Of a stretch of DNA of 42,427 nt, positions 19,105 to 20,953 are shown piece by piece. The notes below the pieces were generated by a model. That model was given only the letters and a program-made list of their open reading frames with translations, had not been told where the DNA came from and made no database searches. How positions within the stretch are numbered: the first letter of the stretch is position 1; every line of letters begins with the position of its first letter. The position numbers were made by a program, and so were the translations under genes. The DNA comes from an uncultured Prochlorococcus sp. (GTDB lineage Bacteria > Cyanobacteriota > Cyanobacteriia > PCC-6307 > Cyanobiaceae), in contig CACOIV010000012.1 in NCBI GenBank assembly GCA_902627335.1, positions 1 through 42,427 on the forward strand. The letters are read 5' to 3'.

Positions 19105-19515
19105 TTAATTATCTTTTTCAAGACCCCAAATTTCTTTTAATTCTTTTAAATCTGATTCTGTAAAGAACATATTATTATCAGGATTAATTTTTATTGCCTC
19201 TGTAAAGTCCGATATTGCTCCTTCATAATCTTCTAGATTTTGTTTCGCCATACCTCTATTAAAATAGAAATTACCATTATCAGGATTAATTTTTATTGCC
19301 TCTGTAAAGTCCGATATTGCTCCTTCATAATCCTCGGCATCTAATTTATCAAAGCCAAGATTAATATAAAATTCTGCGCTTTCTGCATTAACTTCTTCAG
19401 AATGAGAGAACATAATTACGGAAGTTCCTAGACCAAAACCAATCTTAATTAAAAGTGGTTGGGCAAAAGGTATTAAAGATAATATTCCAATGACAAAAAA
19501 AGCTTTTTTTTTCAT
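19105..19515 (-). CDS. Secreted or membrane-anchored TPR repeat protein
   Basis: With the start at the ATG complementary to 19513-19515 (MKKKAFFVIG), the product is 136 residues. It has a Lys-rich signal-like start and hydrophobic segment (~5-35), followed by tetratricopeptide units. Two consecutive 34-residue repeats carry the near-identical sequence DYEGAISDFTEAIKINPDN, matching TPR helix B and the Pro-Asn-turn consensus. TPR proteins are binding scaffolds; the partner is unknown. An upstream in-frame ATG at 19560 would add 15 residues before the Lys-rich signal start and is less likely. The two repeats share an exact 57-bp DNA segment, so they arose by recent duplication or conversion. Confidence 0.75.
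   Translation of the reverse strand: MKKKAFFVIGILSLIPFAQPLLIKIGFGLGTSVIMFSHSEEVNAESAEFYINLGFDKLDAEDYEGAISDFTEAIKINPDNGNFYFNRGMAKQNLEDYEGAISDFTEAIKINPDNNMFFTESDLKELKEIWGLEKDN
19174..19332. repeat. Exact 57-bp direct repeat inside TPR gene
   Basis: Bases 19174-19230 and 19276-19332 are identical over 57 positions and start 102 bases apart, exactly one 34-codon TPR unit. Flanking bases differ at both ends. Third-position identity across the whole block shows that selection on protein sequence is not the only cause; recent duplication or gene conversion is implied. Confidence 0.93.
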
Positions 19516-19807
19516 ATCAAATTCACTTTTAATTAATATACCAACAGTAACGAAAATCAACTTTATGATATTTTTCTTAAGAGGGGAAAAATTAACACGT
19601 GAAGCCTAGTTGAAACCAATTTTTTGATACTATGACTTGCTTTGTGACCTGCTGTTCATTACCACTCTATAGTCCTGAAATTTAAATAAGAAAAAAATAC
19701 GTCATAGTAGTGTATCTGAAAATAAAATTTAAATATTATCTGGGATGAAATCCTTGCCAAACAATCTTTAGATCAAATTTGTTTAATAAAAACTAATAAT
19801 TAGTTAC
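19516..19807. other. Non-coding stretch with long-range inverted repeat and guaA-end-like sequence
   Basis: I see no credible gene in these 292 bases. They hold a 9-bp inverted repeat (TACTATGAC at 19628-19636, GTCATAGTA at 19701-19709), extended by GATAC at 19626-19630 and GTATC at 19712-19716. Near its midpoint lies CCACTCTAT (19662-19670), which also occurs at the 3' end of guaA in the same orientation. A CACGTGAAGCC at 19596-19606 resembles the iterons next to guaA. Their meaning is discussed in the findings. Confidence 0.5.
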
Positions 19808-19990
19808 TCAATCACAATAAATTAAACAATTTTGATTTGTTGGATGTTCTCTACATTCCTTCTCCCAAAAGTTTCGAAATTCAGGAGTACATTTTTCAAG
19901 TTCTTTTGGAGTTTCGTTAACTTTTAATCCTGCATAGTTAAACGCAGTTAAGTATCTTGGAAGAACATTAAATTGATTGAATAGTTTCAT
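19808..19990 (-). CDS. Small cysteine-containing protein with strong Shine-Dalgarno
   Basis: This is a 60-residue protein with four cysteines in the second half, ending CREHPTNQNCLIYCD. The spacing of C34, C46, C54 and C59 suggests metal binding or disulfides, but no known family is assigned. I recall similar Cys-rich tails in small picocyanobacterial proteins, though I cannot verify this here. Start choice is firm: AGGAGG ends 4 bases before the ATG, an unusually good ribosome binding site for this window. It faces away from the candidate RNA at 20044-20200. Confidence 0.68.
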   Translation of the reverse strand: MKLFNQFNVLPRYLTAFNYAGLKVNETPKELEKCTPEFRNFWEKECREHPTNQNCLIYCD

Positions 19991-20001
19991 AAGACCTCCT
20001 A
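19991..20001 (-). promoter_or_regulatory. Strong Shine-Dalgarno for the 60-residue protein
   Basis: On the minus strand the bases before the ATG read TAGGAGGTCTT, a full AGGAGG (complement of 19995-20000) four bases from the start codon. Most genes here have no clear Shine-Dalgarno, so this site stands out and fixes the start. Confidence 0.7.
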
Positions 20002-20043
20002 GATCTATATCTGTATTGTCCTACTTTTAACTTGAAATTCATA

Positions 20044-20200
20044 GGGTATTTCTACCCGAGTATTAGTGCTTTGTGGTTGTCACGACTATCTTTTCCCATT
20101 CAGTAGGAGTAGAAATAATCCAGGAGTCAAGGAACTTCAAACATTTAGGAAAAAGAAGTTCAAGACTCGAAGAGGGCAAACAAATGCCCTCTTATTTTTT
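20044..20200 (+). ncRNA. Candidate structured non-coding RNA
   Basis: Three hairpins lie in series on the plus strand. First, GGGTA-TTTC-TACCC (20044-20057). Second, a two-part stem: GAGTC (20124-20128) pairs with GACTC (20164-20168) and GAACTTC (20132-20138) pairs with GAAGTTC (20155-20161), giving 12 base pairs around a 3x2 internal loop with a 16-nt apical loop. Third, a terminator hairpin begins two bases after that stem. No convincing gene lies upstream on this strand to use the terminator, so an independent small RNA is likely. The 5' end is uncertain: TATTGT (20014-20019) or TATTAG (20061-20066) could be -10 boxes. Four GGA triplets occur, one in the apical loop. I do not recognise it as 6S RNA, tmRNA, SRP RNA or a known cyanobacterial Yfr RNA. 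Confidence 0.45.
20170..20200 (+). terminator. Rho-independent terminator
   Basis: A 9-bp stem (AAGAGGGCA / TGCCCTCTT) with a 6-base loop AACAAA is followed by ATTTTTT. The T tract lies only on the plus-strand side, so it terminates plus-strand transcription. GC-rich stems are rare in this AT-rich window, which makes a chance origin less likely. Confidence 0.75.
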
Positions 20201-20242
20201 AGGTAGATTCTGGGAAGAAATCTTCTTTAACTTTCCTACTCT

Positions 20243-20953
20243 TTATCTAATTAATTCTGCACCATTTAATTTCAACCATTTCTTATGCTCTTTAAATAAA
20301 GGGTCATATTTTGCTACCTCATTCCAAAAGAATTTTGAATGATTTGGTTGAAGCATATGACAAAGTTCATGCACAACTACATAATCAACAATCGAATGTG
20401 GTGCTTTTATTAGATGAAAGTTAAAAGTTAATCTACCTTTCCTATCACAAGAACCCCATCTGGTTTTGTAGTTTCTGACTTTCATTTCTCTTGGAGATAC
20501 TTTAATAATTTCTGAATACCTTATAACTTTCTCTTCTAATCTTTTATATGCTTCTTGGATATACCATTTTTCAATATAAGTTTTAATTCTAAATTTTCTT
20601 ACATCTTCAATCTCTGATGCTCTTACATTCGTAAAAAGATAATCACCATCTAATTTAGTTCCAACTCTCCCTCCCTCTAAAACTTTTAACTTTAAATTCT
20701 TACCAAAAAGTGCAAAAGATTCGCCACTAATAAATTCTCTTTCTTTAGATATAGGTTGACTTTGTAATTGAATTGCCTTATTTCTAATCCATCTTTCTTT
20801 CGTTTCAAGAATTTCAACTATTTTTCTATCTCTTACTCTATTTGGAACTCTTATCTGTAGTTCATCTCCAACTATATAAAGTACTGAAGTTTTTCTTCTG
20901 GATCGAAGAACCTCTACTCTTAATCCGAATAACTCTTTTGGAATTGCGCTCAT
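20243..20953 (-). CDS. YgjP/DUF45-type metal-dependent hydrolase
   Basis: The 236-residue protein belongs to the DUF45 (YgjP-like, M48-related) family. It contains RWGSC (165-169), the zinc-binding helix H195-E-L-C-H199, and a third histidine H205 in QPNHSKFFWNEV, the usual HExxH-x5-H arrangement. Family members are predicted metallohydrolases, often found near restriction-modification genes or on mobile regions; the substrate is not settled. No restriction genes are visible here. It is the last gene before the guaA 3' end, with a 279-base non-coding gap carrying short repeats, and may be an acquired gene. Confidence 0.88.
   Translation of the reverse strand: MSAIPKELFGLRVEVLRSRRKTSVLYIVGDELQIRVPNRVRDRKIVEILETKERWIRNKAIQLQSQPISKEREFISGESFALFGKNLKLKVLEGGRVGTKLDGDYLFTNVRASEIEDVRKFRIKTYIEKWYIQEAYKRLEEKVIRYSEIIKVSPREMKVRNYKTRWGSCDRKGRLTFNFHLIKAPHSIVDYVVVHELCHMLQPNHSKFFWNEVAKYDPLFKEHKKWLKLNGAELIR

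Follow-up and report, generated by a model that had tools for sequence, protein, structure and literature searches.

Known sRNAs and divergent sRNA-protein loci

Yfr2 (Cyano-1, RF01701) is a small RNA (sRNA) that Prochlorococcus carries in multiple copies, often in genomic islands. Yfr2 to Yfr5 pair with Yfr1, Yfr10, Yfr12 and Yfr18 through the 5′ motif GUGUGUAGGAG (PMC2518516), and targets of Yfr1/Yfr10 are controlled by Yfr2-type pairing (PMC6778093). Yfr11 and Yfr16 (RF02363) are about 140-150 nt long, possess their own terminator and are present as two similar copies in MED4 islands. Head-to-head pairs of an sRNA and a small protein gene are known from divergent type I toxin-antitoxin loci, such as tisB/istR and zorO/orzO. 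CP12 is a switch of carbon fixation; it has an AWD_VEE core, an N-terminal Cys pair and a C-terminus of the form C-x3-P-x4-C-x2-[YF]. Cyanophages also carry proteins resembling the CP12 C-terminus (PMC3906501).

The window analysed here is a stretch of 42,427 nt, contig C12 of a Prochlorococcus genome of 1.31 Mb in 68 contigs. It harbours a small RNA gene and a divergent small protein gene which, judging by the comparison of copies, form a compact two-gene module spreading between Prochlorococcus genome sites. The family, its structure, its terminator, its non-coding character, its linkage to a protein gene and its multiple copies and contexts were established by computation. Overall, the explanation that we consider probable is a module of a non-coding RNA and a divergent small protein, in which the RNA would pair in trans.

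Similar to Yfr2, the new RNA is a multi-copy Prochlorococcus element often situated in genomic islands, and its exposed (U)AGGAG-type motif is a candidate for pairing with ACUCCUCACAC of Yfr1/Yfr10, where ACUCCU matches AGGAGU. However, it has no sequence or structure match to Yfr2/RF01701, is longer, has other stems, is linked to a small protein and, among the genomes sampled, occurs in Prochlorococcus and a single sister genus only. The true Yfr2 copies of the window's genome lie elsewhere in that genome. With Yfr11/Yfr16 the RNA has in common its predicted length and a terminator of its own, but identity with them was rejected, as blastn of the element against those loci gave chance matches and RF02363 had no match in the window.

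Structure and conservation of the RNA

We are highly confident that the plus-strand element belongs to a genuine family of non-coding RNAs. A structured RNA had been proposed here by an earlier sequence-only reading, and the proposal is supported by the covariance search, by compensatory changes and by the lack of coding. The gene is placed at 20056-20200 (+), a non-coding stretch that the copies keep end to end and that the covariance model matches. The 5′ end is predicted between about 20044 and 20066 and the 3′ end at the terminator T-run, with a predicted length of about 140-150 nt including its own terminator.

The RNA comprises hairpin P1 (GUGGUUG-UCA-CGACUAU, 20073-20089), where 86% of the cells were paired over six pairs, an unpaired linker (20090-20123), the main stem-loop P2 (20124-20168) and an intrinsic terminator (20170-20200), all on the plus strand. 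P2 has lower arms GAGTC/GACTC (20124-20128 and 20164-20168) and upper arms GAACTTC/GAAGTTC (20132-20138 and 20155-20161) with a 3x2 internal loop between the two helices, just as the earlier reading had drawn it; the apical loop is variable. The strong terminator hairpin that it described is also present, with a stem of 9 bp and a loop of 6 nt (20170-20193) followed by ATTTTTT, although one base and not two separates it from the main stem. This is the sole terminator-like site on both strands of 19780-20280, where shuffles predict 0.2. The fold of the whole 160 nt (20041-20200, plus strand) reached -48.3 kcal/mol against -31.9 +/- 3.6 for shuffled sequences (z -4.6), and 0 of 200 shuffles were as good.

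In an alignment of 38 sequences, 89% of the cells form standard pairs against 42-48% with the partners slid, a comparison in which picking the helices from family copies favours the unslid register. The double changes are not a product of this choice: 43 double-change cells were observed versus 15.9 in shuffles, and 0 of 500 shuffles reached 43. The closing pair of P1 switches between GC (24) and CG (9), one pair of P2 varies between CG (17) and AU (9), and terminator pairs switch between GC (25) and AU (10) and between AU (27) and GC (6). The covariance check suggested along with the first reading thus recovered copies across marine Prochlorococcus, whose stem and terminator both carry compensatory changes. 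On the raw alignment, a misaligned upper stem left RNAalifold with only the terminator and a 5′ hairpin; the structure analysed here was instead anchored on a typical copy.

A conserved 5′ block (AGGGTATTTCTACCCGAGTA, 20041-20062, strand unassigned) may correspond to a promoter/operator or to the RNA 5′ end and is palindromic in some copies. It contains the most conserved 8-mer, CCCGAGTA. At loci L176 and L186 the RNA is lost, yet part of this block remains with the ORF. A small upstream hairpin, GGGTA-TTTC-TACCC, had been read as part of the element. It is found at 20044-20057, but 14 of the 38 copies have A.C as its second pair, and since it is so poorly kept across relatives it cannot be counted securely to the RNA; this stretch may instead be part of the divergent promoter. 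Overlapping GAGTATT/AATACTC half-site palindromes were observed in 20041-20065 and its equivalents, three of them consecutive in, for example, L023, L051 and L056, and they represent a possible operator at the divergent promoter. Both divergent promoters are expected in the shared intergenic region (19991-20043, strand unassigned), which is conserved across copies and from which the RNA would be transcribed. No good match to the sigma-70 consensus was detected on either strand.

The divergent small protein

The partner gene encodes a small protein of 60 aa (19808-19990, minus strand) and is identified by its coding signature, its linkage to the RNA and the CP12 match of its C-terminus (ECREHPTNQNCLIYCD). 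A divergent small ORF with a strong ribosome-binding site had already been pointed out and is real: the AGGAGG-type site, AGGAGGT at 19994-20000 (-), appears on the other strand as ACCTCCT and is conserved in copies of all types. What had gone unnoticed is that this protein and the RNA together make up one conserved and mobile module. Among the 109 distinct RNA copies with enough upstream sequence, 94 are accompanied by a divergent ORF (40-75 aa), and the median distance from ORF start to the first position of the RNA model is 44 nt.

Synonymous fractions of the partner ORF were 0.59 for type A (expected 0.26), 0.37 for type B (0.19) and 0.43 for type C (0.22). In these three types variability is 2.5 to 5 times higher at third positions and stops are absent, a pattern that indicates clear protein-level selection. 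The ORF types have a common MKLxTPFxxL-like start and diverge after it. Searches of Pfam, NCBIfam, PHROGs and PADLOC with the small protein gave nothing significant, and its AlphaFold model (mean pLDDT 58) was too weak for a structure search. MED4, MIT9515 and the sister genus also possess the small protein without the RNA, and the RNA sometimes occurs without an adjoining protein gene, for instance in MED4. As protein and RNA each occur alone, the pair is the usual state and not an obligate one.

CP12-like tail and phage homologue

The two main ORF types, A and C, share with CP12 and with the cyanophage CP12-like proteins the C-terminal motif C-x3-P-x4-C-x2-[YF]; the Cys-pair motif is also found in the phage and MED4 forms and is lacking in types B and D. 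When a profile of 17 members was searched against PDB sequences, three out of the five matches were CP12, and the best of all was a CP12 peptide whose structure was solved together with GAPDH (3b1j, E 0.0098). In a profile-profile comparison with cyanobacterial CP12, the last 21 residues matched with E 8.9e-5 (WEKECREHPTNQNCLIYCD versus LELFCDANPDEPECLVYDD), and 0 of 200 column-shuffled profiles reached the CP12 score. In contrast to CP12, neither the AWD_VEE core nor the N-terminal Cys pair is present in the small-protein alignment, and the Pfam CP12 model does not match the small protein.

By this similarity, the Cys-pair types of the small protein probably dock on GAPDH via the CP12-like tail. 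Because types B and D lack the motif, we infer GAPDH binding for types A and C alone, and the RNA is not bound to a single function of its partner protein. Through such docking the module may couple control by RNA with carbon metabolism.

Cyanophage P-TIM68, a T4-like phage isolated on MIT9515, encodes a 51-aa homologue that is 63.5% identical to type C. The gene (KM359505.1, 129293-129448) has a heat-shock gene on one side and the DNA polymerase region on the other, is annotated only as hypothetical and is not accompanied by the RNA. No credible phage copy of the RNA was found. One IMG/VR contig (L172) carries RNA and small protein at 1-1130 and continues from about position 1131 with T4-like phage genes; it was rejected as most likely a chimeric host-phage assembly. 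Since the microprotein with the CP12-like tail is firmly linked to the RNA and is also phage-borne, the idea that islands and phages share small carbon-redirecting tools can be tested directly.

Proposed mode of action

The best-supported reading is that of a trans-acting RNA, possibly a weaker partner of Yfr1/Yfr10. Action in trans via base-pairing has, in our estimate, slightly better than even chances. The exposed linker (...UAGGAGUAGAAAUAAUUCAGGAG...), with AGGAGU at 20105-20110 as candidate base-pairing site, would contact C/U-rich targets, and AGGAGU is intact in the linker of 58 out of 71 copies. The ACUCCU motif of Yfr1/Yfr10, with which Yfr2 pairs, is a plausible partner of this site. 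Predicted duplexes of the linkers with the Yfr1 motif of the window's genome (AUACUCCUCACAC) have a median of -10.8 kcal/mol, a value that 1% of shuffled linkers reach; for a Yfr2 5′ motif of that genome the predicted duplex is stronger, at -16.4 kcal/mol. The AGGAGU-ACUCCU pairing is short and generic, the motif was picked after looking, and AGGAG also resembles a ribosome-binding site. Pairing with Yfr1/Yfr10 is put forward as a tentative proposal that we regard as rather unlikely.

The main rival is a dedicated action on the partner mRNA, with the RNA as its repressor in the manner of tisB/istR, zorO/orzO and shoB/ohsC. We consider it unlikely, though it agrees with the head-to-head layout and the tight linkage. 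Codons 4-6 of the mRNA in ORF types B and D hold UACUCCU, which pairs with AGGAGUA of the RNA, and the type C mRNA keeps ACUCC; the type A mRNA of the window lacks ACUCC at this place. Duplexes of the RNA with its own partner mRNA lay barely below those with shuffled mRNAs (z mostly -2 to +1, from a program that permits very long interactions), so that the complementarity has no significance. Unlike type I toxins, the small proteins are charged and polar and not hydrophobic, padloc does not match them, and several RNA copies lack the ORF altogether, as in MED4.

More far-reaching than the trans-acting RNA itself is the picture of a mobile cassette, in part shared with cyanophages, whose sRNA would sponge Yfr1/Yfr10 while the CP12-tail microprotein would bind GAPDH and brake the Calvin cycle. 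We consider this combination improbable. If true, the sponge would retune a global post-transcriptional network, and carbon flux would come under a combined control by RNA and protein that can jump between genomic islands.

Distribution and novelty of the family

A DNA search detected homologues of the element in 93 out of 197 relatives, often several per genome, in unrelated places and on either strand. The window's genome contains a second copy on contig C2 (77%) and a partial third on C55. In the stretch 61906-62866 of C2 (L002, L061), about 730 bp separate the second copy from a Yfr2 (RF01701) gene, with a second small-protein gene of the MKLLNQF... type between them. With a covariance model built on 38 diverse copies, matches were found in 208 of 266 genomes of the genus (E down to 2e-31), and in 80 of the 87 that are at least 90% complete, with one to five copies per carrying Prochlorococcus genome. 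The carriers appear to include MED4, MIT9515, AS9601 (one copy) and MIT9215 (three copies), and named records with an exact core match comprise MIT 9107, 9201, 9302, 9314 and an HNLC2 scaffold, among others. In a family-wide sample of 400 genomes, two out of 59 genera had matches, the window's own and one sister genus (genomes of 1.9 Mb, weak matches with E 1e-4 to 1e-8); none were found in the 57 other sampled genera. The covariance model and the defined gene pair are ready for a search in existing ocean metatranscriptomes.

In the sister genus, loci L096, L097, L098 and L099 showed matches on both strands with overlapping 5′ ends: related RNAs stand there in divergent pairs that begin in one common region, and a further small Cys protein (MSCGNPFKHAIEDVKETF...) flanks them. 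At L105/L039, apparently MIT9515 (135043-135196), unrelated sequence replaces the terminator half and two tandem small-protein genes are located upstream. Some divergent copies have lost AGGAGU or stem pairs, and therefore many RNA copies may be decaying.

The first reading recognised no described RNA, which holds as far as Rfam goes: at the gathering threshold and at E<=10, Rfam gave chance matches only, such as a plant miRNA model. The RNA could nevertheless already have a name, either from the primary transcriptomes of MED4 and MIT9313 (Voigt et al. 2014) or as one of Yfr106-108 of NATL2A, which we regard as a doubtful identification. MED4 has one copy (1348232-1348400, plus strand) and the sister genus has copies too, and by 2020 the known Prochlorococcus sRNAs numbered about 30 (PMC7368042). 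Against it, the MED4 copy coincides with none of the published positions of Yfr8-Yfr21 (Table 1, PMC2518516), and Rfam, which is home to Yfr11, has no match. Yfr103 is present in Synechococcus and MIT9313 (PMC5069720), whereas the new family was not seen in the 57 other sampled genera. The MED4/NATL2A sRNA papers that were compared describe no such sRNA-protein pair. Measured against Rfam and Yfr8-Yfr21, the element would be a new Prochlorococcus sRNA family with an unusual sRNA-microprotein arrangement, its transcript being predicted and its function deduced.

Mobility of the pair

At least 30 different downstream contexts were found among 107 copies. Eleven copies end 27-29 nt from tRNA-Ser(CGA), with the tRNA gene on the opposite strand, and tandem or near-tandem copies are present at L044, L046 and L048. 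No mobility gene was identified with the pair. Multiple copies, tandem arrays, many contexts and repeated insertion at tRNA-Ser would also fit a repeat that acts at the DNA level, in mobility or recombination, and is transcribed only incidentally. This is quite improbable, because the stems show compensations of the RNA type with a conserved linker left exposed, the linked ORF is under protein selection, the conserved unit stops exactly at the terminator, and conserved terminal repeats or attC-type ends were not seen by eye.

Strand and coding potential

A structured 5′ leader, acting in cis on the minus-strand small ORF, would place the element directly upstream of that ORF, where it is, and the early conserved columns do continue into the ORF promoter. 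On the plus strand, G.U outnumbers A.C by 91 to 7 in P1 and by 32 to 8 in the upper main stem; where cells depart from the commonest pair, the two are about equally frequent (33 G.U versus 31 A.C), and therefore the strand cannot be assigned from the substitutions alone. The T-run follows the terminator hairpin on the plus strand only, three G.U of the commonest P1 pairing would be A.C on the minus strand, MED4 and others have the element without the ORF, and L176, L178 and L186 have the ORF without the element, all of which makes a leader very improbable and favours the plus-strand RNA.

A short coding gene, with a GTG/ATG/TTG frame from 20066 (VLCGCHDYLFPFSRSRNNSGVK...), is almost certainly not the explanation: although a start codon is found at the equivalent position in 71 of 77 aligned copies, with a median of 40 open codons, and loosely similar frames exist in the sister genus and MED4, a stop follows within 25 codons in 21 of the 77, the synonymous fraction (0.19) equals the neutral expectation (0.19), codon-position periodicity is absent from these copies, and the partner ORF clearly passes the test that this frame fails. 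A conserved reading frame, named with the first reading as an outcome that would speak against an RNA, was thus rejected by the substitution pattern despite the sister-genus and MED4 lookalikes.

Neighbouring genes

A gene for a YgjP-like metallopeptidase (PF01863, E 6e-57; 20243-20953, minus strand) adjoins guaA and ends 43 nt from the RNA terminator. On the other side of the module, the gene of a TPR protein (19105-19560, minus strand) contains two nearly identical DNA repeat units, at about 19172-19244 and 19283-19340, which suggests a recent internal duplication.
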